DNA of 26,455 bases, from IMG/VR virus record IMGVR_UViG_3300007265_000032, positions 1 through 26,455 of that record; one strand, 5' to 3'. Made by a program: the position numbers and the translations under genes. This DNA comes from a virus. Below the pieces are notes generated by a model. That model worked only from the letters and a program-made list of their open reading frames with translations. It made no database searches and was not told the DNA's origin. Below, piece by piece: positions 117 through 22,104 of this stretch. The stretch's first letter is position 1; every line of letters begins with the position of its first letter.

Positions 117-500
117 TCATTGCGCGCGATTGCTAGGCACGACCATTTGCGACAAAAGGGATTGAATCTCGCTGGGAACAAGCTCAGAACGCAGCACGGT
201 TACGCGATTGTCTGGGCTGATCTCTACGTGGAACTGTCGCCCCTTGCGGATTTGCCGCTGGTACACCACATCGTTGTGCGTGAAGTACAGCCAGGAAATA
301 GCGAATGGCCAGTTCAAGTAGGGCGCAAAGGCGAACGCCACTGCCGCATAAGCTCCCGCCCAAACAGACAAGCACCTCGGGCATTGCCAGAGATAGTGAG
401 GGAATCTTGTGCGCAGCTTCGCAGTGATGCGGTCCATCGTGAAGAGTTCCACGATTCGCCATGCCGCGAGAACCGCAAATGCTAAGTGGATATATTTCAT
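117..500 (-). CDS. Small membrane protein with CPRC motif, DUF1360-like
   Basis: A 127-aa protein. The start at 500 is chosen because its ATG overlaps the tailspike stop as ATGA; a longer frame reaching 587 would run inside the tailspike gene. Residues 1-20 are hydrophobic. C40 and C43 lie in the motif CPRCLSVWAG, followed by a second hydrophobic stretch (about 48-72). A CxxC-x-SVWaG motif between membrane segments resembles the DUF1360 family of small phage and bacterial membrane proteins; that assignment is from memory and tentative. The C-terminal third is soluble and charged. As the last gene of the operon, directly after the tailspike, it could be lysis- or exclusion-related, but nothing shows this directly. 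Confidence 0.75.
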   Translation of the reverse strand: MKYIHLAFAVLAAWRIVELFTMDRITAKLRTRFPHYLWQCPRCLSVWAGAYAAVAFAFAPYLNWPFAISWLYFTHNDVVYQRQIRKGRQFHVEISPDNRVTVLRSELVPSEIQSLLSQMVVPSNRAQ

Positions 501-2392
501 TGGCACGTCCAATTTGTTCCGTTCGAGACCGCCATGTGTCCCGTTCCAGCCCCAGCGCAGGTAGCAGCTGTCGTGCAATCGGTGCAATATTTAATGATTC
601 CGGCTGCTGGAACCGCGCCTAAAGCAGCGAACGCAGATGTGCCGATAGCTGGCGTAGTCAAAGCAGGACTGGTAAGCGTTTTGTTCGTCAGCGTGTCGGT
701 TGTGCCCCTGTAAACGAACGTGTCATTCGCGCCCTGCAACGTATTCGTAAAAGCGCTCGCGCCCGTGGCTGGAGCCGTGATCGTGACAGGGGTGTTGAGT
801 AGCCCAGTCGTTCCGCCGATGGCCAGCGGTCCTTCCACATTCCAAAGGTATGGATTGGCGCTGTTAGGCTGCGTCGAAAAGTCGCTGATAGCCTTTGCAT
901 TCCCGCCGTTCACGCGATTAGTAAAGGCCAGCGGGCTGTTGACCATGAAACTGACAAGGCCCCGCGTGGCTCCCGGCCCAGGGACATTCAAGATAGAAGT
1001 AATTCCAGCGGTGCGCGTCGAAGAAACAACCAGTCCGTCAATTCGCACATGGTTGCCACCAACGGAAATCATCCAATCGCCAAGCGCTCCCGCTGTAAAA
1101 TCGTCCAGCATCGTTCCGCCAGAGATCGTCACGTTAATGGGACCGGAGATATAGTGCTGGGTCAGATTCGGAAGATTCTCGAAATGGACCCCGTAGAAGT
1201 TCGCACGCGCTAAACCGGATGCTCCCGTGTAGATAAAATTATTGACTGTATTCGATTCGATGCCCCCGCCATAGAACGTAACTTCACCACTGGCCATACT
1301 AAACCCCGTCGCATTGCTCTGAGCATAAAAGCCGTTCATCATCAGGCTTTCATAGCCGATGAAGTTGCAGCCCGTGGTGTTGTAAACCACTGACAAATTG
1401 TTCCACGTCATCCCGTAGGCGACGGTGGCGGCGTTGTTGTCCAAAATTCCGGTACCAAAGCCCTGTACGGTTACGCCATTGAACAGGCCGTTCTCCACAC
1501 CGCCGTTTGTTTTTGAGATGCGAATCCCGTTCGCCGAACTGCCGCACCCTCCGATGGTGAAGCAGCCATTGTTTACCAGCGTGATGTAGTTGATGCCGGA
1601 ACCGGATTTGATTCCGCCACCCGCTAAAGGAGTCCAGTCGATGGACATCGCGTCGGTTGCCGTCGTAGGCGTGTAATTCAGGCAAGCGCCGCCAGGGTTG
1701 GCATTGTTCGATGTTCCGGGCGCTAGACCATTTAGGATTAAGTATTTCCCAGCAGTCGCAAAGACAATCGGCGTGGAGTAGTTGTAGCAAGAACCGTTCG
1801 CCTGCGGCAGAAGATAGATCGTGCCGCCAGTGGCGGGAAGCGCGGCATAGGCTGCATTGAGTTGCGCTCCGATGTCCCCGGCACCCCAACGGGTAATTGC
1901 GCCGCCGACACAGAGGACGTTGTTAATCTGGTCACTGACGAGCGGAGAATTGTTCAGTGTGAACGGGGCATTGGTAAGTGTTAATGGCTGCCCGGTGATG
2001 GCCTGCGGGACAAGTGGAGCGCTGACGATGGCTGAAGGAACAAAAACGGGAGGGCTCGTCACGTTAGCTGCGATGGCGGTGTTTAGATTGAAAGACGCGC
2101 CGATGATGTTGTACAGCACCGGCCCCATTGAGTTGCCGAGCGCGTCGAAGAACGTAACGGAGTAATGCGTGTTCGATGGATTGATGTTGTCGTTGCCCCA
2201 CAGGCTGATTGAAAAGGTTCCGTTCTGGGCGGTGACGATCGAATAGGTCAACTGTGGGATGATGGCTGTGCCAGTGACGCCAATGGGGTTACCTGTTCCA
2301 ATGTTGGTGAGCTGGAACAGAATTTTTCCCTGTCCGATAAGCCCGCCTGTCAGTTGATTGAGGGTGCCTGTAACCGTGCAAGGTGTTGGCAT
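497..2392 (-). CDS. Tailspike / tail fibre with beta-helix domain
   Basis: A 631-aa virion protein that probably binds or degrades the host surface polysaccharide. The N-terminal 110 residues form a beta-rich domain ending in a GNDNINPSNTHYSVT stretch, typical of phage tail-fibre attachment domains. From about residue 172 (GDIGAQLNAAYAALPATGG, then TIYLLP) it reads like the first rung of a pectate-lyase-type right-handed beta-helix, followed by Asn/Gly/Ser-rich short repeats to about 480. Near the C-terminus is DTLTNKTLTSP, a recurring tail-fibre motif, and the protein ends with several Cys and a terminal WTCQ. The ATG lies immediately after the stop of the FN3-like gene. I cannot see a catalytic set, so enzymatic cleavage is inferred only from the fold class. 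Confidence 0.85.
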   Translation of the reverse strand: MPTPCTVTGTLNQLTGGLIGQGKILFQLTNIGTGNPIGVTGTAIIPQLTYSIVTAQNGTFSISLWGNDNINPSNTHYSVTFFDALGNSMGPVLYNIIGASFNLNTAIAANVTSPPVFVPSAIVSAPLVPQAITGQPLTLTNAPFTLNNSPLVSDQINNVLCVGGAITRWGAGDIGAQLNAAYAALPATGGTIYLLPQANGSCYNYSTPIVFATAGKYLILNGLAPGTSNNANPGGACLNYTPTTATDAMSIDWTPLAGGGIKSGSGINYITLVNNGCFTIGGCGSSANGIRISKTNGGVENGLFNGVTVQGFGTGILDNNAATVAYGMTWNNLSVVYNTTGCNFIGYESLMMNGFYAQSNATGFSMASGEVTFYGGGIESNTVNNFIYTGASGLARANFYGVHFENLPNLTQHYISGPINVTISGGTMLDDFTAGALGDWMISVGGNHVRIDGLVVSSTRTAGITSILNVPGPGATRGLVSFMVNSPLAFTNRVNGGNAKAISDFSTQPNSANPYLWNVEGPLAIGGTTGLLNTPVTITAPATGASAFTNTLQGANDTFVYRGTTDTLTNKTLTSPALTTPAIGTSAFAALGAVPAAGIIKYCTDCTTAATCAGAGTGHMAVSNGTNWTCQ

Positions 2393-2917
2393 TTACTGTG
2401 TAGTCCTCGGCCCTGGACGGCCTGGCAATGCGCCGCCGCCGCCGACTCCGCCGCCGACTCCGCCTTGATTTACTGGCGTTTGCGAAATGGGGACGATAGC
2501 TGCTGCGGTAGAAAGTGCGAAGCCGGAAGCGCCCGCTGAAAGCGTTCCGCGATTACCTGAATTGTCATAAGCCTGCACAAAATAGAATCTAGTCGTCGTA
2601 TCGTTTAGCCCTGTGCGCAGATAGGAATTGCTAACAGCGCCGTGATTCGATGGAATGGTTACCAATGGCACGCCCGGAGGTGCGCTCGACGTGCCGCTTT
2701 CAAACAGCGCGTAGTGGTTGGCATTCTGAATTTCGTTGAAGATAATTTGCACCGCTCCGGGCTGAGAGATCGTCGTCACCGCTGGCGCAGGGAGGGGGAA
2801 CAAACTGGACTGCGATTGCAAGGCCACGCTCAAGAGGTACTGCAAAAAATCTCGCGTAGCCCCCTGGATGTAGGCGTCATCTGGAACGCTAGTGAAGGGG
2901 CGGCTAGGTCCGGGCAT
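2393..2917 (-). CDS. Virion protein with fibronectin-III-like domain and Gly-rich tail
   Basis: A 174-aa protein. The start at 2917 is chosen because its ATG overlaps the upstream stop (TAATG); the frame extends further upstream but there it only shadows the previous gene. Residues about 50-135 look like one fibronectin type III domain (a NEIQNANHYALFESG strand, later RFYFVQAYDNSGNRG), a fold often used in virion surface proteins. The C-terminus is a Gly/Pro linker (GGVGGGVGGGG) encoded by a short GC-rich tandem repeat. It sits between the phosphatase-like gene and the tailspike, so a tail appendage, connector or baseplate role is likely. I do not recognise a named family. Confidence 0.7.
   Translation of the reverse strand: MPGPSRPFTSVPDDAYIQGATRDFLQYLLSVALQSQSSLFPLPAPAVTTISQPGAVQIIFNEIQNANHYALFESGTSSAPPGVPLVTIPSNHGAVSNSYLRTGLNDTTTRFYFVQAYDNSGNRGTLSAGASGFALSTAAAIVPISQTPVNQGGVGGGVGGGGALPGRPGPRTTQ
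2438..2461. repeat. Two perfect 12-bp tandem repeats coding a Gly-rich linker
   Basis: The unit gccgccgactcc occurs twice back to back. On the minus strand it encodes the GGVGGGV part of the FN3-like protein's C-terminal tail. It is probably a slippage-prone linker; unit number could vary between relatives. Confidence 0.7.
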
Positions 2918-3450
2918 TAGCCTCTGCCTACCTTGTAGATTTTGTCGCGCTTCACGGGGTTGCCGTTGGGCACTAAGGCGTGAGCGGTCATACCATCTCT
3001 TATGAAAGCGATGGTCAGCGGGTCCGTCACAAAGGCCACCGGCGAAGTGTTCTTCAGGAGCGTATTGAAACGCGAAGCGAAGCGCTTCATGAAGCTCGTC
3101 AGCGAATCGCCCTCTCTTATTGGGATGTCCGGATTTTTTCGCCACTTCTGCTCGACTCGCTCCATTGCAATTCCCAAATCTGATAAGCGGATACCGTGGA
3201 ATCGGCCAATTCTAAAACGGCGGAATGCAAATTCATGTCGGAGCGGAACGTGTAGCTCGGAGGCGAGTAACTGAGCTGCTTCGGTATCAAGGTCAGAGCT
3301 ATAAACATCAGTGACTCCCTTGTCCTTGAGTTGCGCGATAAGTTCGAGCCACTCGCGCTTTGCCTTGCGGTCGAGCTTGACCACGGTCCAGCTAGGCACA
3401 CGCTGTTTGCGCTCCATGACGCTTTCAGGGGTTGGTACTATGAATATCAT
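2917..3450 (-). CDS. Histidine-phosphatase-fold protein lacking the catalytic residues
   Basis: A 177-aa protein that lines up with the phosphoglycerate-mutase / histidine phosphatase superfamily. It has an N-terminal MIFIV strand where LVRHGE is expected, then a helix, then GVTDVYSSDL at 45-54 (the family's 'VYSSDL..A..TA' block), then a FRRFRIGRFHGIR block at 76-88, and a C-terminal FVTDPLTIAFIRD at 140-152 where 'vvsHg..ir' is expected. The catalytic RHG is replaced by PTP (6-8), the acid residue of the 'LrE' block by Arg, and the second His by Asp. The fold is probably kept while phosphatase activity is lost. The ATG start at 3450 keeps the whole N-terminal strand; no strong ribosome site is seen. 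Superfamily assignment is from motif order only. Confidence 0.6.
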   Translation of the reverse strand: MIFIVPTPESVMERKQRVPSWTVVKLDRKAKREWLELIAQLKDKGVTDVYSSDLDTEAAQLLASELHVPLRHEFAFRRFRIGRFHGIRLSDLGIAMERVEQKWRKNPDIPIREGDSLTSFMKRFASRFNTLLKNTSPVAFVTDPLTIAFIRDGMTAHALVPNGNPVKRDKIYKVGRG

Positions 3451-3506: not shown

Positions 3507-3749
3507 ATGGTTTCGCTGGCTGCCAATGTCGCCGCCTTCCTGTTTCTGCTATTTATTGGCCTGTGCGCGTTGGGCCTCATGAGTTCGCTTTTTGGTTGGG
3601 GCCTCATATATTTGAGTGGACTTCTTGACCGTCCTTCAAAAACTCAGAGACAAGCGAATGACGGATACGAATGTCCAGAATGCGGTTATCGACATCCTAG
3701 GGAAGCGTTTTGCCCAACCGCCAATCCTCTCGCCTGGCGACTACTGTGA
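3507..3749 (+). CDS. Small membrane protein with C-terminal zinc motif, isolated on the plus strand
   Basis: An 80-aa protein starting at the ATG at 3507 (an upstream in-frame TTG at 3486 would add 7 residues). Residues 1-40 are strongly hydrophobic, with one long or two short membrane segments (AAFLFLLFIGLCALGL and the FGWGLIYL region). A short basic linker is followed by YECPECGYRHPREAFCP, a zinc-ribbon-like CxxC...C cluster. The hydrophobic block plus Cys/His tail is hard to explain as chance antisense, and no minus-strand gene covers this interval. It diverges from the phosphatase-like gene and converges on the 635-aa ejection protein. No good ribosome site or promoter is visible. A moron-type gene such as superinfection exclusion is possible but unsupported. 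Confidence 0.55.
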   Translation: MVSLAANVAAFLFLLFIGLCALGLMSSLFGWGLIYLSGLLDRPSKTQRQANDGYECPECGYRHPREAFCPTANPLAWRLL

Positions 3750-3756
3750 AATCGCG

Positions 3757-5664
3757 TCATTGATTTTCTGCAAGCATCTGGCGGAAGTCTGCTAGATGGC
3801 CTTCGATGCGGCTGCGTTCACTCTTGGGAAGTTTGGCGTCTTTCAGCGCCTTCTCATCGCTGGCGATGGTCTCCTCGATCACAGACTGCTTGATAGCTGC
3901 TTTGGCAGCGTCCGTACCTTCTACGGTTCTTGGTGCAGATTTACCGCGAACCCAATTTGGGGCGCTTCCCGGTCCACCGCCCTGCCCTCCTCGCGTGAAT
4001 GGCGTAGGGTTTCCGGGCGGGATTGAGTTTCCTTTCGTGGACGCCTTCGCTGCGGCTTTCGAGGACGGGTAAATCTTTTCTGGCGATACATTCGGGACAT
4101 TAGGAAGCCCTTCGCCATATAGGTGCTCGGTCATGCCAGCAGCGCGCGCGATGCGCGGCAAGCCAACACGTATGGCGGCCATCTTCGGACTGATTGCAGC
4201 AAGGATCGGCGTCATGCGCGAAGGCTCATTCAGCATGTCCATGCGCTCGCCGTAGCGGTAGCCGTTCACCGTTTCCTGTAATTTGTCAGTGTCTAAGCCG
4301 TAGGGAGCAATCTTGTCGAGCAACGGCTTGACTTGTGGGCCAAGGTCGTCGCTGATTAACGGCTTCATAATTGAGCCGTGGTTCCCGCCGAAATACGTGT
4401 CTTTGAGCGGCGAACGGTAGGCGGTGTCATAGAACGTCTTGACCTTACTCGCGCCTTCCGTCCATTCATTCAACATTCCGTGGCTTTCGGCTTTGTTGCG
4501 TAGCATCTCGCCCAGCTTGGCGTAGGCCCCTTTGACGCCAGCTTCTACCGCGCCTTCTGCGTTGGCGATCTGTTTCCCGATGTCGGAGTGAATTTGCTTC
4601 AATTCCTCGAAGGACATCTTCCCTTCCCCACCGCCGCCTTCCATGCGCTTTACTTCTTCCGGTGTAAATGCTCCCGATGCCTTGAGCCGCTGGTAAGCCT
4701 TGAGGTCGCTGGGATTGCTCAGGTCGAAGTGGCGCCCGCCAACGGTTGGCCCTGTGGAGCGCGGGCCAGTCGGTTCACCGGATTCAAGTACCTTGGTGAT
4801 CGCCGCGGGGACTCTTTGTTCGGCCTTGACGACTCCCATCGCGTCTTTCACCGCGGCGTGTACGTCCGCGCGATTGAATGCTCCGCTAGGCTCGGCGGCA
4901 TCGATTGTCTGACTCACCGTGCTCATCAGCCCCTTGCCGTCCTCATGCACGGCGTCGAGCGTGGATTTGACGGCTGATTGCACCGCGCTTGCTCTTTGGA
5001 CTTGGCGCTGAATGAAGTTGGCCTTTGCCGGGCCTTGGTTCATCACGTTCTGGATGGACTCTTTGCCTAGCGGGTCGCCTATGGTGAGCTTCCCGCGTGA
5101 AGTTATAGATGGGCCCGCTTCTGCGGGGTTTTCCTTGAGGAGTCCCAGACTGGCGAGATTGCCGAGAAGCGCCCCTCCGCCATGCGCCACCTTTTCAGTG
5201 TCTTTGTTCCACGCCCCGCTGCCCATCTCTTCCACGCCACTGGCTGCGCCATGCGCCCCGCCCATGAGTCCTTTAGCCAACATCGAGATAACGCCCCAGA
5301 GCGGCCCGCCTTGGCCCCACGGTGTCGTGGCAGCCGTGTTTACCTGCTCATTGAGACCTTGGCCTATCGTGGAGAGGTTTGTGCGGCCAGACGTGCTCTG
5401 GGCGCCCTCTGGAATGATTGCGCTGGTTACGCCCATTGCGCCTGAGCGTGCCACGCTGCCCAGCGTCGGACCTTCCTCCGCTGGCGCGGCAACGCCTTTG
5501 GCGTTGATGATTGGCCCGCCCGGACGTGTCTGCATTGCGCCCGGTTGCCGTTCCGAGGCGTAGCGCTTCATCACGCCATCGACTACGGCCATATCCGTAC
5601 CAGCCGGAAAGACGTGCTGCGTTCCGTCTGCCGCGTTCGCTGTGATTTGCTGTCCGTCAGGCAT
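3757..5664 (-). CDS. Large internal virion / DNA-ejection protein
   Basis: A 635-aa protein starting one base after the previous stop (TAAATG). The first 40 residues hold DGTQHVFPAGTDMAVVDGVMKRYAS, shown here in part as DGTQHVFPAGTD; this 'DG..h.FP.GT...V...MK.Ya' block recurs at the N-terminus of phage internal proteins. A Gly/Ala-rich, mildly hydrophobic segment follows (about 120-175), then long Lys/Glu/Ala helices (about 200-480) and a Pro/Gly-rich low-complexity linker (about 545-580). This mix of glycine-rich hydrophobic and helical segments fits proteins that leave the capsid and line the DNA channel on infection. There is no lysozyme or transglycosylase motif. It follows a coiled-coil protein and two other ejection-like genes. 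Confidence 0.65.
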   Translation of the reverse strand: MPDGQQITANAADGTQHVFPAGTDMAVVDGVMKRYASERQPGAMQTRPGGPIINAKGVAAPAEEGPTLGSVARSGAMGVTSAIIPEGAQSTSGRTNLSTIGQGLNEQVNTAATTPWGQGGPLWGVISMLAKGLMGGAHGAASGVEEMGSGAWNKDTEKVAHGGGALLGNLASLGLLKENPAEAGPSITSRGKLTIGDPLGKESIQNVMNQGPAKANFIQRQVQRASAVQSAVKSTLDAVHEDGKGLMSTVSQTIDAAEPSGAFNRADVHAAVKDAMGVVKAEQRVPAAITKVLESGEPTGPRSTGPTVGGRHFDLSNPSDLKAYQRLKASGAFTPEEVKRMEGGGGEGKMSFEELKQIHSDIGKQIANAEGAVEAGVKGAYAKLGEMLRNKAESHGMLNEWTEGASKVKTFYDTAYRSPLKDTYFGGNHGSIMKPLISDDLGPQVKPLLDKIAPYGLDTDKLQETVNGYRYGERMDMLNEPSRMTPILAAISPKMAAIRVGLPRIARAAGMTEHLYGEGLPNVPNVSPEKIYPSSKAAAKASTKGNSIPPGNPTPFTRGGQGGGPGSAPNWVRGKSAPRTVEGTDAAKAAIKQSVIEETIASDEKALKDAKLPKSERSRIEGHLADFRQMLAENQ

Positions 5665-6597
5665 TTATTGCGGCCCTGCGACTCGATTTCCTTGCGCGTC
5701 GTAGTGGAAGGCGCTTCCACTCGTTGCTGCGGGCGGATTCTTCTGCCTGCTTTTTGCCGCTGCTTTTGGATTGCTCGGCAACGGTGCAGCGGGAAGAGGT
5801 GCGGTTGGCGTTCCCGTGGTTGGCGGCTGGCCTCCGGGCGATACTCCCGGCATCCCCGCGCCGCGTGCTTCGCCAACCATCGAAGTTACGTCCTTCAGCC
5901 CAAACAGTTGGTCGAGAATCGGATGCTCGTAGGCGAGCCCTTGAATAGCGGTCACCGCCTTAACGCCTTCCTCGGTTCCCTTCTGGCTGAGCGCCGTTCG
6001 TGCAAGATCGAGGAATCCCTGCTTGATGCCCATGCCCTGCTCGGCCAATTCCAGCTTCGCTTGTTCGATACCAACCTGTTGCGCGCGGAGCTTGAATGTT
6101 TTCTCAAACTGAGCAGCTTGATTGCTGATGCGCGTTTTGGCCTGGTCGAGCCGTCCCTGCGCCATGTCCTTCTGCCAATTGCTCTTTTCCTGTGCGAGGT
6201 CGGCCATTTGCTGCTTGATGGCGTTCGCTGTTTCGCGGGCCTCACCCTTACTCTTTACATCGGTGGCGTAATCTTGCTCTCTGGATGCCGCTGTCGCCGC
6301 AAGGTTCTTGCGATTCTCCAATTCTCCCTGCTGGTACTCTCCGGTCTGCGCGAGCCGCGCCATCGTCTCCGCTTTTTGCTGCTCCATGTTTTGCGCTTCC
6401 ATGCGTTGCTGTGGCGGCATGGAGGTCCAGCCGTAGGACTGCGCTCCGCCAGCAATGGCCTTGATGATTGCGGCCACGACGGGATGCACGCCTGCATCAA
6501 TCCCGCCTGACGGTTGCGGGACCGCTGAAGCAGCAGGATTCTGTAGCGTCTGCTGCGCCATGTTCATCAGTGGAGCGGTTGCGTTGGGAGAGTTCAT
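5665..6597 (-). CDS. Coiled-coil internal virion protein
   Basis: A 310-aa protein whose ATG overlaps the 49-aa gene's stop (ATGA). A short hydrophobic Ala/Gly/Ile segment (about 40-55) is followed by a long Gln/Glu/Lys/Arg-rich helical stretch (about 60-200) with heptad-like spacing, and a Pro/Ala/Thr-rich tail. The layout resembles podovirus ejection proteins, and it sits just before the larger ejection candidate. A named family is not recognised. The alternative is a tail-associated chaperone or scaffold for the internal proteins. Confidence 0.6.
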   Translation of the reverse strand: MNSPNATAPLMNMAQQTLQNPAASAVPQPSGGIDAGVHPVVAAIIKAIAGGAQSYGWTSMPPQQRMEAQNMEQQKAETMARLAQTGEYQQGELENRKNLAATAASREQDYATDVKSKGEARETANAIKQQMADLAQEKSNWQKDMAQGRLDQAKTRISNQAAQFEKTFKLRAQQVGIEQAKLELAEQGMGIKQGFLDLARTALSQKGTEEGVKAVTAIQGLAYEHPILDQLFGLKDVTSMVGEARGAGMPGVSPGGQPPTTGTPTAPLPAAPLPSNPKAAAKSRQKNPPAATSGSAFHYDAQGNRVAGPQ

Positions 6598-7524: not shown

Positions 7525-8204
7525 ACGCTCCATCCTTGCGTGGTTCCGGGATTAAAAGCAGTAGCTCCTGGTTGCCCTGGAGGGCCCGAGGGCACAGTCG
7601 GCCCTGGCTTGTTCGGAGTTGTGGAAGATGGCTTGATGAGTCCCTTCAGAATGTCCGCCAGCCCAGATAGTCCGTTGCCGAGGCTGGGTGCGTTGAGTGA
7701 GTTCAAATCCGCCGAGACGTTCGGTTGATTCTGTGACGCTCCCGCCATTGCGCCAGCATCCTTAAGTCCTTGTGCGGCCTGAAACTTTATTGCTTCATTG
7801 TTTAAAAGATTTGAGAGGTAATTGCTGGAAGATGTCTTAGTCGTCTCCGCGCCAAGTTCGCTGATCGCCGCGCCGGTCGTGCCTGACGGTCCAAAGCCCA
7901 AGCCGCTTGCTCCTACCGTGCTGCGTATCGCTCCCGCTGCGTTGTTTGCGCCGGTGGCGGTAGTCGCTGCCGAGGCTTGCTGAATCATTTTCAGGAACGG
8001 GCTGCCTTCTTTCAGGTAGGGAGTGAAAAAGTCGGTGAGCTGTTTGAATGCTTGCTGCTTATCCGCCATCTCCTGCTGGGCGATTTGCTCTTGTTGCGTG
8101 AGGGCTTTTTGCTGACGACCACCAGCCTGCGCGCCTTCTACGACGCCAGCAACCCCGGTAGCTCCGGCGATTAGCGCGGGAATGAGAGGAATGAGAAATG
8201 GCAT
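7521..8204 (-). CDS. Ejection / internal virion protein with glycine-zipper-like N-terminus
   Basis: A 227-aa protein. The start at 8204 is chosen because its ATG overlaps the upstream stop (TAATG) and GGGAG lies 8 bases before it. The N-terminus is hydrophobic and glycine-rich (MPFLIPLIPALIAGATGVAG). A Gln-rich helix follows (about 30-60), then Ala/Gly/Ser/Thr low complexity, and a Pro/Gly-rich tail. A membrane-active N-terminus with a Gln-rich coil is typical of small podovirus ejection proteins (P22 gp7-like role). This is a role-by-architecture call, not a homology call. Confidence 0.6.
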   Translation of the reverse strand: MPFLIPLIPALIAGATGVAGVVEGAQAGGRQQKALTQQEQIAQQEMADKQQAFKQLTDFFTPYLKEGSPFLKMIQQASAATTATGANNAAGAIRSTVGASGLGFGPSGTTGAAISELGAETTKTSSSNYLSNLLNNEAIKFQAAQGLKDAGAMAGASQNQPNVSADLNSLNAPSLGNGLSGLADILKGLIKPSSTTPNKPGPTVPSGPPGQPGATAFNPGTTQGWSV

Positions 8205-8554
8205 TACGCTACTCCCTTCCACACTGAATAAGGCGTCTTAGAGAGGTTGATGTGCGCGCAGATGCGCTCAATCGTCTCGTCAGGAGCGAAGGCATAAAAT
8301 TGCTGGCCTTTTGGCATCGTCCTTTTCAGCACATCAAGCAATGGCCTGAATTGCACCCTTCCGCGAAAGTCCTCTCGTATCCAAATAGGTTCAACGTGCA
8401 TGACTGGTTGGCGGCAGTGGAATCCCACAATCTCGTTGCCATGCCGAGCCACAGCGATTGCGGATAATTCGGGCGATGGAAGAATGGTGCCGTTCTGAAT
8501 GAACACGTTTTCAACTTTCGACCACTCCTCGGAAGCTAAGAGTTCGTATCTCAT
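8204..8554 (-). CDS. GNAT-fold-like protein in the tail module
   Basis: A 116-aa protein with the order seen in small GNAT-like proteins: an N-terminal helix, a LSAIAVARHGNEIVGFHCRQ strand pair (about 30-50), a VEPIWIREDFRGR strand and loop (about 54-67), a following helix, a YAFAPD strand and a C-terminal VWKG strand. The usual acetyl-CoA loop (Q/R-x-x-G-x-G/A) is not clear; RGRVQF occupies its place, so activity is doubtful. Its ATG overlaps the preceding gene's stop (ATGA). Similar short proteins occur among podovirus tail/ejection genes as I recall, but their role is not established. Confidence 0.5.
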   Translation of the reverse strand: MRYELLASEEWSKVENVFIQNGTILPSPELSAIAVARHGNEIVGFHCRQPVMHVEPIWIREDFRGRVQFRPLLDVLKRTMPKGQQFYAFAPDETIERICAHINLSKTPYSVWKGVA

Positions 8555-9081: not shown

Positions 9082-9263
9082 CAGCGGCCCACCACTTGGT
9101 GCGGACATACACCAAACTTACCGATTGCAAAATTGCAGTTCATGCATAGGAGTCGGTAATCGTCAGTCGGAAATCCCGATTTAATTAGGAAGCGATAGAA
9201 GGCAAGCGGGTCTTCTGTTTGTGCCTTGATTCCGCCAACTGGAATCCTCGGTTTAGTTCTCAT
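9081..9263 (-). CDS. C-terminal half of an HNH-type zinc-finger endonuclease domain
   Basis: A 60-aa protein whose ATG overlaps the nozzle stop (ATGA). Residues about 22-55 contain FYRFLIKSGFP, then YRLLCMNCNFAIGKFG, then VCPH. This block closely resembles the C-terminal half of a phage HNH-like family whose complete members carry an upstream CxxC and an IDHxxGG motif before 'fYrwL...gyP..yqvLCfNCN.akg.yg.CPH'. The N-terminal zinc pair and the catalytic His are absent. It could be a decayed homing endonuclease or a small zinc-binding protein kept for another purpose. The precise stop/start overlap argues that it is still translated. Confidence 0.6.
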   Translation of the reverse strand: MRTKPRIPVGGIKAQTEDPLAFYRFLIKSGFPTDDYRLLCMNCNFAIGKFGVCPHQVVGR

Positions 9264-11869
9264 CGCCCGGTCACGTTCGTGTACTGAATCTCAAAACCAC
9301 GCAACTCATACAATCCCGGCGCGGATGGAAAGTTGGTATTGATTTGGAATCGACGGCCTTTCGAGGAGCGTGTCGCACCGAACTTGTACAGTGCAGGGGA
9401 ATATTCCAATCCAAAGATGTTCGTCTTGCTGTCCACGCCCGGCCTGAGCGTCACCGTGTTCCCACTGTCGTCCGCAAGTCCCACAACGTACTTGTCGTCG
9501 TCGTAGCTGAATACCTGCCATGTCCAGTTTTGGCTAGGAATGTTTTGCGGAAACTGATTGGTCAGCACGCGCATCCAGTCAAATGTTTTCACCATCTGCG
9601 GATTCTGATTGCCGAAAGCATGGAGGCGGCAACTTCCAGTGACGTTTTGCTCCGCAGAAATGGTGTAAAAAGTGGGCTGCCAATCCGCATCGGTAATCAG
9701 GTCCACATCTCCTGCGAGCAGGTGATTGACGGAATTCCCATCATAGGCGGTACAGATTCCTTCGCAGTTGATGTCGAACTCGTACCACGTCGGTTGATTC
9801 GTCGCCATGTCGAAAGTGAAGAACGATGGCTGGCCGTTCGAGGCAAGCAAGTCGAGGTCCAGCAAAAGCAGCTTGTTGTTGAAGGTGGAATTATCGAGGG
9901 CTACGGCAAGGGCCAGCCAAGAACGGTCGCCGCGCTTGTAGTACGTCATTTTGGCGAATTGAAGCCGTGCGCCATTGATGCGGTTCAGCGTGGATTGTTT
10001 GGGCTTCCCGATATTCTTTGGCGCGTAGTGGTCGGTGAACAACCACACTTCACGGTCAGAGGAAAGCCAGATAGCACCCAGCGGTGTAACCGCCGTCGCG
10101 TATGGTGAACCACACCCAATCTTGTAGGGGAGTCTCTGAATGGTCGCGCCTAGCTGGAAAGGACTGGCTACCGTGTTGTCGGAAAGCAGGCCAGTCATCT
10201 TGAACATGTCCTGATGGTTCGACCAAATAATTAGTCCTGTAGGCAGGTTTACCGAGCCGTTTAATTGCCCGTCGCCAATCGGTAACGTGACCGTATTCAA
10301 CGGCGCGGAGTTTTCGGGAGGCTGCCCAACCACAGTCGCTTCGATGTTGGTGTAGAAAAATGTCGATGGCGCGGCAGGAACTCCGTAGATGATTATGCGC
10401 CCCTGATACTGCTCAAGGGATTGGCCAATCGGCGGAGGGACATTGTAAATCTGCGTGATCTCGCTGGAGAACGGAACGTTAGGAGGAGCGGAGTTGGCGG
10501 TATCAATAAACCGGAATCCTGCCGCAGTAATTGTGAGTCCGCTTCCAAGAAAGAGCGAATTCCTGCCAATTTTGAAATACACCGCTCCGCCATCCCCAGT
10601 AGCGTAGAGACGGACGTGCGTGGCTTGCGGGTCGATAACCTGAAAACGGGAATTTGTTGCTGCTAGCGTCGCGTTGAACGGAGCCGCCAAAGTCATCGCT
10701 GTGGTGCTCGCTACGGAAGCGATGACCGCGCTACCTACTGCGCCCGTAACCGTTTCGAGCCACAGAATTTTGCCTACCCATGCGGATGTGAAGCTGGTTC
10801 CGACTCCGGCAACCGATGTGCTGTTGGCCGTAACGCTGACCGTGCCTGTCTCTACAAGGTCGATGGTTCCGGTTTGACTCGTGTATTTTACGAACTGAGA
10901 CGCCGGCGACGGGGCGCTGACCTCTCCGGTATTCGCGTTTTCCCATGCGTACTGATAAGAACGGCCTACCGTTTGCGTAATCCCCAGTGTCACCGTGCCA
11001 GCGCCGCTAGTTGTTGGCGGTCCCACATTGGGGTAGGTAAACGCCGAAGCGCCTGTAACGGTGATTAGCGCAGCCACGCCCGTTGCCGTGTTGAAGCTCG
11101 TATCCGCGACGCCGGAGATGCCGACGTACTGACCCGTGACTAATCCGTGCGGTGCGGTCGTTGTGATCGTGGCAACGTTGTTAGCGCGCACAGCCCCGGT
11201 CGGCGCAGTAGAGATAGTTGACGTGGTGCCAGCGGTCAGCGTAATCGTTGCGGATACATCCGGTGCATCAATGCCCCAGAACTCGATAAATGGCTGATTC
11301 CCTCCCGTGTGCGAAATCCCTACAAGTACCTTGCTTCGGAATTGCCCGTTGGCCTCGAACACGATGTTGTTGAGTAATTGACGGCTGTACGGCCCATTCA
11401 GAAGAGACTTCGGTAGAGGAAAGGATGTTGTCCCGCCAACATTCAAAATCGTATAGATGTCGAGGAGTGGGCCAGCTTGCACCGTTCCAAAGAATCCACT
11501 GTTGTAGGCAGCGAGCGGATATTGGATTATCCATCGCGGGCCAGTCGTTGCTGTATCGTTGTTCTCAAACATCAGCCAGGTCACGACGTTGGGAATGTCC
11601 GTAAAAGAGAACATGGAAACAATGCGCTTGCTGTTCGCCGCGAATCCCGTAGCGGAACTGTTGAACACCGGAGCCCAGCGCGCCCTGCGTATCGTTCCGA
11701 ATTGCCCAGCATAGACATTGGAGCTTTTGGCCCAGAACTGCGGAGAGAGTAGATCCGGCGAGGTGTAGTCATTCCCTCCGCCGATGAGCGAATCGAGAAT
11801 TTCCGATTGCGGCCCAGTTTCCGGCTGCGCGCTTTCAAACTCCGCTGTCGGTCGACGGCGTGCTGGCAT
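9260..11869 (-). CDS. Tail nozzle / DNA-stabilisation protein (short-tail hub)
   Basis: An 869-aa, beta-rich protein that probably forms the tail tube/nozzle closing the capsid (role as in P22 gp10 or T7 gp12). The N-terminus is charged, and a GGNDYTSPDLLSPQFWAKSSN start leads into blade-like repeats ('NvyaGqfGtirrarW', 'GaiWlSsDreVWLFTDHY') suggesting a propeller. Two inserted domains are visible: residues about 226-298 (NVATITTTAPHGLVTGQYVG, a common phage beta-domain) and about 341-412 (GTVSVTANSTSVAGVGTSFT), the latter also found in the adaptor gene next door. The ATG is 3 bases after the adaptor stop. Size, position after the adaptor and before ejection genes all fit. Confidence 0.7.
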   Translation of the reverse strand: MPARRRPTAEFESAQPETGPQSEILDSLIGGGNDYTSPDLLSPQFWAKSSNVYAGQFGTIRRARWAPVFNSSATGFAANSKRIVSMFSFTDIPNVVTWLMFENNDTATTGPRWIIQYPLAAYNSGFFGTVQAGPLLDIYTILNVGGTTSFPLPKSLLNGPYSRQLLNNIVFEANGQFRSKVLVGISHTGGNQPFIEFWGIDAPDVSATITLTAGTTSTISTAPTGAVRANNVATITTTAPHGLVTGQYVGISGVADTSFNTATGVAALITVTGASAFTYPNVGPPTTSGAGTVTLGITQTVGRSYQYAWENANTGEVSAPSPASQFVKYTSQTGTIDLVETGTVSVTANSTSVAGVGTSFTSAWVGKILWLETVTGAVGSAVIASVASTTAMTLAAPFNATLAATNSRFQVIDPQATHVRLYATGDGGAVYFKIGRNSLFLGSGLTITAAGFRFIDTANSAPPNVPFSSEITQIYNVPPPIGQSLEQYQGRIIIYGVPAAPSTFFYTNIEATVVGQPPENSAPLNTVTLPIGDGQLNGSVNLPTGLIIWSNHQDMFKMTGLLSDNTVASPFQLGATIQRLPYKIGCGSPYATAVTPLGAIWLSSDREVWLFTDHYAPKNIGKPKQSTLNRINGARLQFAKMTYYKRGDRSWLALAVALDNSTFNNKLLLLDLDLLASNGQPSFFTFDMATNQPTWYEFDINCEGICTAYDGNSVNHLLAGDVDLITDADWQPTFYTISAEQNVTGSCRLHAFGNQNPQMVKTFDWMRVLTNQFPQNIPSQNWTWQVFSYDDDKYVVGLADDSGNTVTLRPGVDSKTNIFGLEYSPALYKFGATRSSKGRRFQINTNFPSAPGLYELRGFEIQYTNVTGR

Positions 11870-16566: not shown

Positions 16567-17463
16567 TTACTTTTTGCCAGCGTACAGGGCTGCGGCTTCG
16601 CGGCCCATCTGCTTATCGTCCCAGATGTCTTTCGACTCGGTATCGCGTGAGCCGTTGACGTTCTCTGCGGCTGGCACAATTTCTCTGGCGGCATTGTCAC
16701 GGACGTTGGAGCGCCGTGAATGCTCGTCGGTTGCAGCGGCTTTGGTTTCAGCAGTTACGCGCTTGGTGGCTTCCGCGTAGTATTTCGGCACGTCGATGTA
16801 GACCCCTTTGTTGACTCGCCCCTGCGCTTGTCCATCCTGCCAAAGCATCTTCTCTGCCTTGAGCCGAATGTATTCGCGGTCGCGTGCGGTTGTGCCTTCA
16901 GGGAGTTTCGCATCGAGTTCGTCAAACGCCTTGTTCCAACCTTGGTTGATTCGGGCGTTTTCCTTCTCGGTGCGTTCCTGCTGGCGCTCATCGCGCAACG
17001 ACTTTACTTCGTTGATGAGGCTATCGAGTCGTGGGTCCGGTGCCGATGGATTGGTTCTGCTCACACCATTCTTTCCGCTATCTTCGGGATGCTCGCGCTG
17101 GTAGCGTGCGAACCAACGGTCGGAAATCACTTCCTCAAGCTGACTGGCGAGTGCCGGGTCGTTCTTGGCGATCTCGTCCAGCAACACGTTCGGGTTGTTC
17201 TTGAGGATGAGCGGCAAATTGTCCAAGGCGGTTTTGGCTTCCTTGAACTGCTTGGCCGACTCTACGGTGATTCCCATATCAGACAGTTGGCGGTACGCCG
17301 CAACGTCAGCTTCCGTGAACTGGGGTTTCGTTTCCTCTGTGACCGTTGTTGAGCCGGTTGCAGTAGGAGTGACCGTCGCGGTCTCGGCAGTTGTAGCGGT
17401 TGTCTGCTGAGTTGCGACCGTCTCCAGTTCTTCAAAAGAAATCCTCGTATCTGGTTCGGGCAT
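16567..17463 (-). CDS. Capsid scaffolding protein
   Basis: A 298-aa protein with a clear ribosome site (AAGGA, 5 bases before ATG). A Thr/Ala/Glu-rich disordered N-terminus (about 1-45) is followed by long charged helices (SAKQFKEAKTALDNLPLILK; LDSLINEVKSLRDERQQERT; RDREYIRLKAEKMLWQDG) and a basic C-terminus. Scaffolds are typically helical, charged and placed just before the capsid gene, as here. The sequence has no protease signature. Confidence 0.7.
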   Translation of the reverse strand: MPEPDTRISFEELETVATQQTTATTAETATVTPTATGSTTVTEETKPQFTEADVAAYRQLSDMGITVESAKQFKEAKTALDNLPLILKNNPNVLLDEIAKNDPALASQLEEVISDRWFARYQREHPEDSGKNGVSRTNPSAPDPRLDSLINEVKSLRDERQQERTEKENARINQGWNKAFDELDAKLPEGTTARDREYIRLKAEKMLWQDGQAQGRVNKGVYIDVPKYYAEATKRVTAETKAAATDEHSRRSNVRDNAAREIVPAAENVNGSRDTESKDIWDDKQMGREAAALYAGKK

Positions 17464-17514
17464 CGTTATCCTTCTACAGTTCCCTTGCTAGGGTTGTCAA
17501 GAGAAATCGTATAC

Positions 17515-17571
17515 TCACTTATTTTGTTCTGCCGCGCCCAGCAGGAGAGTGAGGAGGAGGAGGGGTTTCAT
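17515..17571 (-). other. 18-codon hydrophobic ORF (signal-peptide-like)
   Basis: It begins 2 bases after the SGNH stop with a GGGGAA ribosome-like stretch. The product is MKPLLLLTLLLGAAEQNK. It may be a micropeptide or the remnant of a second secretion signal. The polyleucine part is encoded by a purine/pyrimidine repeat, so it may also be chance. Confidence 0.2.
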
Positions 17572-17573
17572 GG

Positions 17574-19748
17574 CTAGTTCCCCATCGCCATTGCTTTGAA
17601 CTTGTACACATTTCCCGCGGTGCAGGTGCCTTGCATCGTGATCGTCAAGGTCGTGGCAGCTTCTACCCAAGTGGGAAAGAACGTTGCTGGAGTGGGAGCA
17701 ACAATGTCGTTGCGCGAAACCATGTACTGTGGCGTTTGCGTCCAAGTACCGTCTTTGAACGTAACGGTGATGACTGGGTTTGGCGCTGGTGTCGTTCCGC
17801 ATGTCACAGACCATGAGAATGCTTGGTCGAATCCCGCAGCCGCAGAGACGGCAGGACCAGTACCCCATCCGCTGGTTGGAACGATAGCCGCATCAGCGCC
17901 AGAATAGGCTGTGCCATTGACTCTCAGCCGTTTAAGAAAAAGATTGTTGGGCGCTTGCGAGCCGGGGTTCTGAAATATTCCTACTGTGTTAGCGTCCAGC
18001 TCCGCTATCCATGGTCCCTTTGCGCCAGTTTCGTTACTGAATATAGATGTCTGAAAAGGCGGCATGTAGTTAGTGGCTTGCCCATAGGAAGTCTTTGTAG
18101 AAGCGAGGTTACCGAAAGCATTACCGGCGAGGTCTTGAAACTGCCAACTCCGCGTTGGCTTCGCATACAAATCGAATCCGTCAATGGCCAGAATCTTTCC
18201 GCCGGGAGGGTTTAGCCCTGCGATGTCAGTGCTTAGGGTGAGCGATGTCAGTGTGCTCGTGGGGGCATTTACCCCGCCCATCCTAGGACTGGCCCCGTTG
18301 ATGAAATCATTGAAGCCGAGTTGCTGCCACAGAAGATTCGCCTCTGCCGCCTGCCCGAGCGTGGTTTGGTGTGGGCTGCTGATGTCCGTAATCCAACCGA
18401 GAGCCTTCTCTGTTGCGTAATTGAGGTTGGGATAGTAGCCATCAAAATAGATGGCATTGTTAGCCAACGCCACGCTGCGCGTTCCGGTATTCCATACGAC
18501 CTGGCAAGCATCGTTAGGTGAGATTACGGGTGATGTGCCGAAGAACAGAAAATCAACCAGAGAGTTAGCGGTTGTCCAATTTGAGGCAAATATAGTGAGG
18601 TTCGACGGCCATGACGAACTATCGCTGGCGAAGAGACAATTTGCGTTATTGGCCCCATTCGTTTTCATCTCGAACAAAATCAGGTCAGGGGCCAGTGCCG
18701 CAAACCACGGCGCAGTTACCGCCGAAGGCGTGGAGTTGGCGTTGTTTAAGGCCAGCCCACCGCGAGAAACGTTAATTATCACAACGCCGTTGATGAGGGA
18801 GTTTTCAAAAGTTGGACCAAAAACGTTCACCGTCGCGCCCGTCGCGCAGGCTTGAATTTTATACGGGCCTGTATCGGGAGCGGTGTAGGTTACGACCGAG
18901 CCGATGGTCGAAGCATTGGCAGCACTCGTTGTGCTCTGCGTCACGAATCCCGCGCCATTTTTGTTGGTCTGGAATTGGAGACTACCCGCCCCCGGCTCAC
19001 TCACGTAAAGAAGTGAGAGTTGATTCGCAACTGCATATCCGCCGCCCAAGCCAAAGAGAGCGCAACCGCCAGCAGGTATGGAGTAATAGACCCCGGTCGG
19101 GCTTCGCGTGTAGTCGTAGGCGTGAACGCTGCCGTCGATGACAAAGGCCCCACCGCTAAGGGCGTCATTTGTGACGCACGATCCACCCTGTCCCGTGGCG
19201 ATTGTTCCTTGGCAGGAAATGTCCACGCCAGCATTGCCAAAGCTATCTCGCAGCCCCGCCGCAACCGCATTATTATGAAACCCCGCAACCGAGTCGCCCC
19301 ACACCAGCACTCGCAACTGAGCAGGAGAAGCCGTCTGCATTTTGGCAATTTTGGTGAGCGTCGAGCGAAACGAAGATAGACCCCCTTGAATGGTAGGTGC
19401 GGGGCTGCTCACTGAAGAAGAGCCGCCTGCCACGACGTAACGATTCTGCGGCCCATAGCCCTGCCCAAGCAGTTGCACCGTCCACGAGGATGTGCCCGCA
19501 GCGAAGTACACGCTTAGATTCCCGCCAGAACCTACTGAGATCGGCTGCGCGACTACCTGCGTAGCGGCAGAATTACTGTAAACCGTCAAGGGGGACGGGC
19601 AGGGATAGCCGCCATCCGGCACTGGGCAGAACTGGACCTGCGCGTTCGGCGCTGGAGGATTAAGCTGGTAAGGAACGCCTTGACCGCGGGCGGCAGGAGC
19701 CAGCAGGAGGAGCAAGGCCGGTAAAAACCTTTTACCGCGTCCGGCCAT
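17574..19748 (-). CDS. Secreted-type SGNH (GDSL) hydrolase with tail-like domain
   Basis: A 724-aa protein. The start at 19748 overlaps the portal stop and has AAGG upstream; the frame extends to 19961 but only shadows the portal gene. Residues 1-24 form a signal peptide (RFLPALLLLLAPAARG). Residues 25-110 are a small beta-domain. The hydrolase has VLVWGDSVAGF with Ser153 (block I), NVSRGG with Gly330 (II), KTNGANN with Asn364 (III), and DISSPHQTTLGQ with Asp455/His460 (V), so the full catalytic set is present. The C-terminal part (about 485-724) is beta-rich and may bind carbohydrate. Such enzymes deacetylate or de-esterify surface polysaccharides; the substrate here is unknown. A signal peptide is odd for a virion part, so it may act as an exported host-surface modifier. 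Confidence 0.7.
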   Translation of the reverse strand: MAGRGKRFLPALLLLLAPAARGQGVPYQLNPPAPNAQVQFCPVPDGGYPCPSPLTVYSNSAATQVVAQPISVGSGGNLSVYFAAGTSSWTVQLLGQGYGPQNRYVVAGGSSSVSSPAPTIQGGLSSFRSTLTKIAKMQTASPAQLRVLVWGDSVAGFHNNAVAAGLRDSFGNAGVDISCQGTIATGQGGSCVTNDALSGGAFVIDGSVHAYDYTRSPTGVYYSIPAGGCALFGLGGGYAVANQLSLLYVSEPGAGSLQFQTNKNGAGFVTQSTTSAANASTIGSVVTYTAPDTGPYKIQACATGATVNVFGPTFENSLINGVVIINVSRGGLALNNANSTPSAVTAPWFAALAPDLILFEMKTNGANNANCLFASDSSSWPSNLTIFASNWTTANSLVDFLFFGTSPVISPNDACQVVWNTGTRSVALANNAIYFDGYYPNLNYATEKALGWITDISSPHQTTLGQAAEANLLWQQLGFNDFINGASPRMGGVNAPTSTLTSLTLSTDIAGLNPPGGKILAIDGFDLYAKPTRSWQFQDLAGNAFGNLASTKTSYGQATNYMPPFQTSIFSNETGAKGPWIAELDANTVGIFQNPGSQAPNNLFLKRLRVNGTAYSGADAAIVPTSGWGTGPAVSAAAGFDQAFSWSVTCGTTPAPNPVITVTFKDGTWTQTPQYMVSRNDIVAPTPATFFPTWVEAATTLTITMQGTCTAGNVYKFKAMAMGN

Positions 19749-22104
19749 TGCGCCTTTTCTGTTGCGAAGATTCAGACATGCCGCGGCGGCCTGTGCGGTT
19801 CTGGTTTCCACCGGGCGGCTGAGGCCGGTTGGGTTTCGCGGCAGCACCAGCCTGCGCTCTGTTCTGTCGGAACTGCGCATTATCATTGGGGTTTTGCTGC
19901 TCCCCGCCTTGCTCTGGCTGGCCTCCCGCTTCCGTATGCGCGCCTTGAATCGCGCCGGCAATGGCCATCTTGGTTGCTTTGTTTTGGATGTGATCGAGGA
20001 AATGCTGTTGAGTCGCTACCTTCACTTCAGGTGGCTGTGTATCAAACTCATCGGAGTTGGCCCAATGTGAGAGCGAATCCATGTGCGCGTCATCGTTCTG
20101 CCAGATAGCAGGCTTCGGGAATTGCCCTGTTTGTTTCGCGCCGTCAATCTCTTTTTGCTGCACTTTCTCGTCGCCGCTGTAGGAATCGAGGTCCGTGGGC
20201 ATCTGGTAGAGTTCGAGAACCTTACGACGGACGGGCGGAGGCAACTGCGGATTAAAAGCCCCGGCAGAGATGGCCTGCACGAGCGATTGCTGCTTGTTGA
20301 AGTCCTCGGGGATGATTCGCGCAACGATGCGCACGCGGTCCATCTTGAGCAGTTCCCCGCGAAGCTGCTTGAACTCCCACTGCCCGTTTACGCCCATTGC
20401 CGCTTGCACGCGGTCATCGAGCCAGTTCTTTGCCGCCAGTTTCAACATCTGCACGGCCCACAATTCGTTCTGCTCTTTGTACATGAGCTGCAAAGGCCCG
20501 AGCATGGCCTGTGAACGTGAAACGGCGTTTTCTTGCCCGCCGAACGTGTTGATTCCCGGCTCATGCTGACCGATCGCGGCGGGAGAAACGCCGGAGTGAA
20601 ACTGCATATCCTGTAAGCGGGTGTTCTTCCATGCCCAGACATCGGGAGAAATCTGCCCACCAGGAAACCATTTCACGACTTGTTCAAGATTGCGCTGGCC
20701 GAGATTCTTTACTTCCATCACGTAACCGGCGTCGTTCCAGATGTTATTTTTGTCCACCTTCTGCGCGTCGGCCATCATTACCGGCATGGTGTTCCAGTCC
20801 ACATGGCGCATCAACATGCGGTCGCATTCATCGTTCTGCATCTGGATGGGAATTAGATCGTCGTCGCCGTCGCCCCAAACTCTGCCTTCGACGTGGATGT
20901 GCTTGAAGTGCGTCCAATGGTCGTCCATCGACTCGTTGCGCGTTTCGAGCAGGCAATCATCGGTGACAGCGCCGTAGAGTCCGTCCTTGAACTGTTCCGC
21001 TAATTCGGAATCGAAATAGTACATGTTGGGCCGGACCCAGCCCTGAATCAGTAAAGATTTTGATTGCGCGGTGGCTCGTTCGTACCAGCCGGGATACTGC
21101 GTTGGGTCGTTCGGTAAATCGGCGGCGGCTTGCTGATAGATAAGTCCGATGTCCTCGGAAGCGGTCATGCCCTCGACGGGCGAAGAGTTCGCGCCGAAAT
21201 CAGCCTTCGGAAAAGTGGCGTGTAGAGCTACTGTATCCGCCATGCGCACGCGCAAAAAGAACGGAGCGACTGAAAGTGACTTGGACGACGAGCGCATGTA
21301 TGCCTCAAACGGCCATACCACTTCGCACATCTCCTGCCCTTTGGGATAAGAAGTTTTCCCCTTGAGCACTGGAACTTGGCCCATTTGCGGAGGGATATTC
21401 ATGGGTGGCATCTGCGCGTCGGGGCCGCACTGCGGACAAACATCGGCATTACCTTGGCCTTGCATTCCGCACTGCGGACAGTAGAACTGTCCTTCCGCGA
21501 CGGCCATCTCGACATCTTCGTAGACGGGCGCATCTTGGAAGCCATAGCGCGGGTCAACGGAGTAGTAGGAGTAGCGGAAAGAGTTGCCATACAGCCTGAG
21601 ATTTTGCGCTTCGATGGCTCGGATGGCATCGTAGCCGATGTTTTCCTTAATCATCTCCAGCGCGGAGCGCGCGGCGGAAGCTACGCCTTGAGACTCAGGA
21701 TCGGGGCTTGTTGGCTGGGCGACAAACTCAGGAGCCGTCTGAACGTACATGGCCGTGCCGTACCGGATATAGCTGCGATAATAGTTAGAGGCGAATCCGT
21801 ATTCAGCAGAATTAACGCCAAGGCTGTCGAACGTGAACCCGATGTCACTGAGTACGGAATCGTGGTACCCCCCGAAAAAGAGATGGTTACGGAACCATTT
21901 TCTGTGGAGCTGGAGTTTTTCATACTGCGCCTCGTAATAGAATCTTTTCAGCAGCCACTTAATGCGCTCTTCTTTCTTCTGCGCGCGAGGATACTCCGGC
22001 ATCCCTTTCCATGCTTCGCGCAGCTTGTCGCGCACCAAATCATCTTTGCCGCCCTTGAAGAGGTCGGTGATGCGGCCCATCATCCCGGTCAGAGCGGAGG
22101 CCAA
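19732..22104 (-). CDS. Portal protein with inserted zinc ribbon
   Basis: A 790-aa protein forming the DNA entry/exit ring. It starts with TTG directly at the upstream stop (TAATTG), with AAGGA 6 bases before it; the next ATG (residue 8) has no ribosome site. The helical N-terminus, the long stem-like region (DVWAWKNTRLQDMQFHSGVS, GQHEPGINTFGGQENAVSRS) and the Pro/Gln/Asn-rich basic C-terminus fit large podovirus portals. Unusually, residues 209-226 carry CPQCG, ten residues, CPQCG: a complete four-Cys zinc ribbon inside the wing region. It follows the terminase cluster and precedes the scaffold/capsid genes, the usual order. Confidence 0.8.
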   Translation of the reverse strand: MASALTGMMGRITDLFKGGKDDLVRDKLREAWKGMPEYPRAQKKEERIKWLLKRFYYEAQYEKLQLHRKWFRNHLFFGGYHDSVLSDIGFTFDSLGVNSAEYGFASNYYRSYIRYGTAMYVQTAPEFVAQPTSPDPESQGVASAARSALEMIKENIGYDAIRAIEAQNLRLYGNSFRYSYYSVDPRYGFQDAPVYEDVEMAVAEGQFYCPQCGMQGQGNADVCPQCGPDAQMPPMNIPPQMGQVPVLKGKTSYPKGQEMCEVVWPFEAYMRSSSKSLSVAPFFLRVRMADTVALHATFPKADFGANSSPVEGMTASEDIGLIYQQAAADLPNDPTQYPGWYERATAQSKSLLIQGWVRPNMYYFDSELAEQFKDGLYGAVTDDCLLETRNESMDDHWTHFKHIHVEGRVWGDGDDDLIPIQMQNDECDRMLMRHVDWNTMPVMMADAQKVDKNNIWNDAGYVMEVKNLGQRNLEQVVKWFPGGQISPDVWAWKNTRLQDMQFHSGVSPAAIGQHEPGINTFGGQENAVSRSQAMLGPLQLMYKEQNELWAVQMLKLAAKNWLDDRVQAAMGVNGQWEFKQLRGELLKMDRVRIVARIIPEDFNKQQSLVQAISAGAFNPQLPPPVRRKVLELYQMPTDLDSYSGDEKVQQKEIDGAKQTGQFPKPAIWQNDDAHMDSLSHWANSDEFDTQPPEVKVATQQHFLDHIQNKATKMAIAGAIQGAHTEAGGQPEQGGEQQNPNDNAQFRQNRAQAGAAAKPNRPQPPGGNQNRTGRRGMSESSQQKRRNGRTR

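Follow-up and report, generated by a model that had tools for sequence, protein, structure and literature searches.

Pseudoenzymes are known in cells. Within the histidine phosphatase (HP) superfamily, flea XcAP proteins bind biogenic amines and leukotrienes (PMC10728186), and tau55 of the transcription factor TFIIIC carries a histidine phosphatase domain (PMC4490372). In the open-access literature, we found no phage pseudo-histidine-phosphatase and none in a phage structural block; the preliminary description of the present locus knew of no described role for such a protein in virions. Here we describe a pseudo-HP family from uncultured phages that is new to the sources consulted, although pseudoenzymes as a general kind are already known. 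The window analyzed is a 26,455-nucleotide stretch of viral DNA (IMG/VR record IMGVR_UViG_3300007265_000032).

Identification and predicted fold of the pseudo-HP protein

The pseudo-HP gene is an ORF with an ATG start that occupies exactly positions 2917..3450 (-) of the window and encodes 177 residues. In the Pfam scan, its product matched PF00300 (His_Phos_1) with an E-value of 2.2e-9 and a score of 37.7 bits, compared with a curated cut-off of 21.7. This cut-off was passed separately by all 11 family members scanned, which indicates that the match of the window protein was not due to chance. The nearest NCBIfam family was CobC/alpha-ribazole phosphatase (E 8.7e-10), with a score far under the family cut-off. 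A match to IF2_N, seen in one member only at an E-value of 0.001 and under the cut-off, was set aside.

An AlphaFold2 model built with six family members showed a pLDDT of 84.8 and a pTM of 0.83, and a Foldseek search of the PDB with this model revealed 217 matches at E<=0.001. Among these 217, the 50 that were listed all belonged to the HP superfamily of phosphatases and mutases, with TMq values of 0.6-0.7; the best of those listed was PhoE (1h2e; E 7.1e-9, TMq 0.67), and 9mmh showed a TMq of 0.70. A viral structure library likewise gave HP proteins as its best matches; these came from giant viruses and a few phages and showed approximately 11-16% identity. As judged from the profile match and the model, the window ORF is a branch 1 homologue of the HP superfamily, with the HP alpha/beta fold predicted. 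The phosphoglycerate-mutase type of fold proposed in the preliminary description was therefore borne out by PF00300, the model and the PDB matches, and the structure prediction and fold search suggested there returned an HP-like protein rather than an unrelated fold.

Replacement of the catalytic residues

The catalytic sites were placed by alignment to phosphoglycerate mutases and by a profile alignment to CobC (3hjg). The window residues V5-P6-T7-P8-E9-S10 aligned on the "IRHGES" of active members, so that residues 6-8 (PTP; 3427..3435 (-)) take the place of the catalytic RHG, which was found in none of the 13 members of the family. Where active members have the second catalytic Arg ("SxLxRA"), the window protein has Thr56 (3283..3285 (-)); this position is T, K, R, S, G or E across the 13 members, with Arg in G006 only. 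Residues 77-79 (3214..3222 (-)) are RRF, and Arg78 stands at the acidic Glu of "LNE"; Arg is present here in 12 of the 13 members and Gly in L088, and no member has Glu. Asp143 (3022..3024 (-)) replaces the second catalytic His ("VTHGG"), at a position that is D, A, E or P in the family and His in none of the 13. With all four sites replaced, the entire catalytic set of the window protein is gone. The three replacements named earlier (RHG by PTP, the acid by Arg and the second His by Asp) were thus correct by alignment; the set was incomplete, as the exchange of the second catalytic Arg for Thr56 had been overlooked.

From these alignments, the best explanation is that the window protein is catalytically dead and would perform no phosphate chemistry. 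One point against this reading comes from a passage of PMC10728186, which quotes a His-to-Ala exchange in rat fructose-2,6-bisphosphatase that cost less than tenfold in activity; loss of the His does not always mean loss of activity in the HP superfamily.

Family members and sequence conservation

With the single window protein as the query, no relatives were found in IMG/VR or in GTDB genomes, and the family alignment as the query likewise found none in GTDB genomes. When five members were compared by tblastn with 50,697 phage records, no hits or only hits at chance level were obtained. The relatives were first reached through scans with the capsid protein, a 310-residue neighbour and the large tail protein g_9260, which led to a clade of IMG/VR contigs, and further members came from searches inside these contigs and from scans with the growing family alignment. 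The family comprised 13 members on 12 contigs, with the near-identical L086 and L087 treated as one; 12 of these members, on 11 contigs, lie beyond the window. All 13 are intact ORFs, and their pairwise identity ranged from 22 to 81%, with a mean of 38%. One 78.7-kb contig, G007 (IMGVR 3300020579_000009), contains two members. Two divergent tail blocks, each with its own dead HP, were seen there at approximately 4-26 kb and 49-72 kb, and the two g_9260 copies were 66% and 44% identical to that of the window; the double block may come from two prophages, or else be a composite or an assembly error.

In the pairs compared, dN was 0.14-0.25, and dS was approximately 1 in one pair and saturated in six; changes were by far most frequent at third codon positions. 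Together, these values indicate strong purifying selection. Eleven residues were invariant in the 13 members (R17, L41, D53, R77, F79, W103, G114, D115, S116, S119 and R123), and positions 7 (the nucleophile) and 56 (the Arg) were among the more variable columns of the alignment. The most conserved stretch covers residues 101-120 (W..NP.IP...GDS..S), with the invariant GDS of residues 114-116 (3103..3111 (-)) at its center. His85 (3196..3198 (-)) appears to be specific to the family and is kept in 12 of the 13 members; L088, which still has the gene, lacks both R78 and H85. Several invariant residues are scaffold positions of active HPs (GES/R and SSDL), so that their conservation alone is no evidence of an interface; R78, H85 and W103 look specific to the pseudo-HP family. 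As evident from the alignment of homologues that had been proposed earlier, RHG and the second His are both missing from every one of the 12 homologues; the dead form is a conserved state and not a decayed copy.

Position in the late gene block

We found the pseudo-HP gene in a conserved structural block. Its stop codon overlaps, as TAATG, the ATG of a gene for an FN3-like protein with a Gly-rich C-terminus (2393..2917 (-)), a homologue of which matched phrog_31, central tail fibre J (E 4.8e-5); the model of this neighbour was poor, with a pLDDT of 49. The FN3-like gene follows pseudo-HP in all 13 loci and is itself followed in the window by a tail-fibre-like gene (497..2392 (-)), assigned by position and with homologues in nearer relatives. 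Upstream lies g_3757 (3757..5664 (-)), a putative ejection or internal virion protein by its position, a homologue of which precedes pseudo-HP in 12 of the 13 loci; no match was found upstream in L088. The same block contains the Gln-rich g_5665 (5665..6597 (-)), with 64-73% identical homologues in nearer relatives, and the conserved large tail protein g_9260 (9260..11869 (-)), which shows partial tail matches to phrog_24607/1980, is present in all relatives and served as the clade marker. The order g_11873 - g_9260 - g_8551 - g_7521 - (g_5665) - g_3757 - HP - FN3-like - fibre-like was found in 11 loci, and the order in L086/L087 agreed with it. The preliminary description had placed the gene in a tail operon, which was right in substance, given the putative ejection and tail genes upstream and the FN3-like and fibre-like genes downstream.

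The distances among the pseudo-HP proteins correlated with those of g_9260 (r=0.93), g_3757 (r=0.88) and the FN3-like protein (r=0.90; Mantel p=0.0002 each), and mean conservation was higher for pseudo-HP (0.40) than for g_3757 (0.27). The window also encodes a terminase (phrog_2, PF04466) and a major head protein (phrog_14242). Both the order of the genes and distant capsid relatives, among them "Podoviridae sp. ctLwi270", suggest that the particle of the clade is probably of the short-tailed podovirus type. PF00300 was absent from the distant capsid relatives Arthrobacter phage Jasmine, Microbacterium phage Shocker and ctLwi270.

Additional features were observed in these contigs. Between g_3757 and pseudo-HP, the window has an opposite-strand ORF at 3507-3749 (+) with a hydrophobic helix, a rubredoxin/zinc-ribbon-like C-x2-C end and a weak Pfam match to DUF7129 (E 0.044); the corresponding insert is missing in the nearest relative, L024, and the ORF is possibly a moron gene. 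A small protein at 8204-8554 (-) resembles GNAT acetyltransferases by eye and has a 36% identical homologue in the 3300050821_004524 contig and none in the other 10 loci surveyed. Signal-peptide-like sequences, for example MRKILFFMLLLLAPLARAQQ, occur at or near the N-termini of several fibre-like proteins (L022 6657-8963 (-), L022 18224-19096 (-) and window 17574-19961 (-)) and are unusual in phage structural proteins.

Relatives without the gene

The pseudo-HP gene was absent from five of the 18 relatives (L072, L074, L075, L084 and L085), in which the g_3757 and FN3 homologues are present with nothing HP-like between them. These absences rule out that the gene is essential in the whole clade and indicate that pseudo-HP is not a universal structural part and that the basic tail plan can do without it. 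In the midpoint-rooted g_9260 tree, carriers of the gene occur in both halves, and the presence/absence label requires one change. Because the carriers span the deepest split, the simplest history is an ancestral, already dead HP followed by one loss in one sublineage, although the branch behind it is weak (69/71) and the root is no more than a midpoint.

In four of the five relatives without the gene, the FN3-like ORF extends beyond the Gly-rich end that closes the versions of the carriers; L072 is the counterexample. As this pattern comes from one clade, it gives only a hint that pseudo-HP and the FN3-like protein work together. The C-terminal extension in L084 (17405-18364 (+)) resembles a Hint/intein-type domain by eye and ends in ...GHNLKPF, and a Pfam scan of this ORF gave no match. 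In L085, an HNH endonuclease (17264-17800 (+); PF13392, E 8.6e-15) was observed at the place of pseudo-HP in other genomes.

Proposed role and alternative explanations

The predicted fold, the loss of the catalytic residues in all 13 members, purifying selection, synteny and co-divergence with tail genes support a binding or scaffold role. We consider it an even chance that the phage clade has kept a dead branch 1 HP fold as a non-catalytic binding or scaffold protein of the late tail/DNA-ejection block. Somewhat more tentatively, the undescribed family may serve as a structural part or adaptor in the tail or ejection apparatus of an uncultured podovirus-like clade, in which case a virion machine would have recruited an enzyme fold that had lost every catalytic residue. 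Regarding virion location, partner and function, we infer that pseudo-HP would bind the product of a neighbouring gene, most likely the FN3-like protein encoded by the next, overlapping gene and otherwise the upstream ejection-type protein, through the conserved 101-120 stretch and the RRF/H85 face. In doing so, it would help to assemble or decorate the tail or ejection machinery. The reuse of the fold for binding or structure, as suggested in the preliminary description, remains the best reading, with the restriction that five of 18 relatives do without the gene.

Alternatively, pseudo-HP might be a chaperone or adaptor that folds or docks the FN3 or fibre proteins and then leaves the particle. 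We regard such a non-virion assembly factor as unlikely; the protein is small, soluble and single-domain, its gene overlaps the FN3 gene, and it is missing in the subclade with extended FN3-like proteins, but no likeness to known fibre chaperones was found, and the association with extensions (four of five) stems from one clade with L072 against it. It is less likely still that the dead fold binds a phosphorylated or nucleotide-type small ligand or a host protein in the cell, in counter-defence or host takeover. Dead HP folds can turn into ligand binders, as in the flea XcAP proteins (PMC10728186), and the gene can be lost, like accessory genes; against this, the positions of the former catalytic pocket vary, and vertical co-divergence with the tail genes and a fixed late-block position are unlike typical accessory genes. 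A rebuilt active site with a new reaction, using for example R78, H85 and D115/S116, appears improbable: although R78 and H85 are kept in 12 of 13 members and D115 and S116 in all 13, L088 keeps the gene without R78 and H85, and the invariant residues correspond for the most part to motifs of the HP scaffold. A functionless former metabolic gene caught by chance in decay would agree with the loss of all catalytic residues and the absence from five relatives, but is hardly credible and is contradicted by 13 ORFs that remain intact at identities as low as 22%, a dN well below dS and fixed synteny.

If pseudo-HP is truly a part of the virion, it would be a clear example of phage hardware derived from the fold of a metabolic enzyme.

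Comparison with known systems

Upon comparison with active branch 1 HPs (PF00300; PhoE 1h2e, CobC 3hjg and the phosphoglycerate mutases), the window protein was similar in predicted fold and motif order and shared the scaffold residues SSDL, L-R and G-D/E-S...R. In contrast to these enzymes, it lacks RHG, the second Arg, the acidic Glu and the second His, is somewhat shorter and has its gene within a phage structural block. Members of the HP superfamily with lost catalytic residues and a reported binding role also include the flea XcAP proteins (PMC10728186); these differ in that they belong to the acid-phosphatase branch, are salivary, bind small ligands and have lost one or two residues. TFIIIC tau55 (PMC4490372) carries its HP domain inside a large protein assembly, as is proposed for pseudo-HP, but is a subunit of a eukaryotic transcription factor. 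The HP/PGM proteins of Tenacibaculum phage PTm1 and Acinetobacter phage ME3 also have a viral HP fold and were found by structure, being only 11% identical to the window protein in fold alignments. Finally, five of seven members matched phrog_12933, a family of unknown function, the best being L022 9596-10102 (-) (near full-length, E 3.1e-7), while the window copy itself gave no match. Judging from these matches, phrog_12933 is probably a histidine-phosphatase-fold family, for which pseudo-HP provides a function hypothesis, together with a caution against labelling such genes phosphatases or auxiliary metabolic genes.
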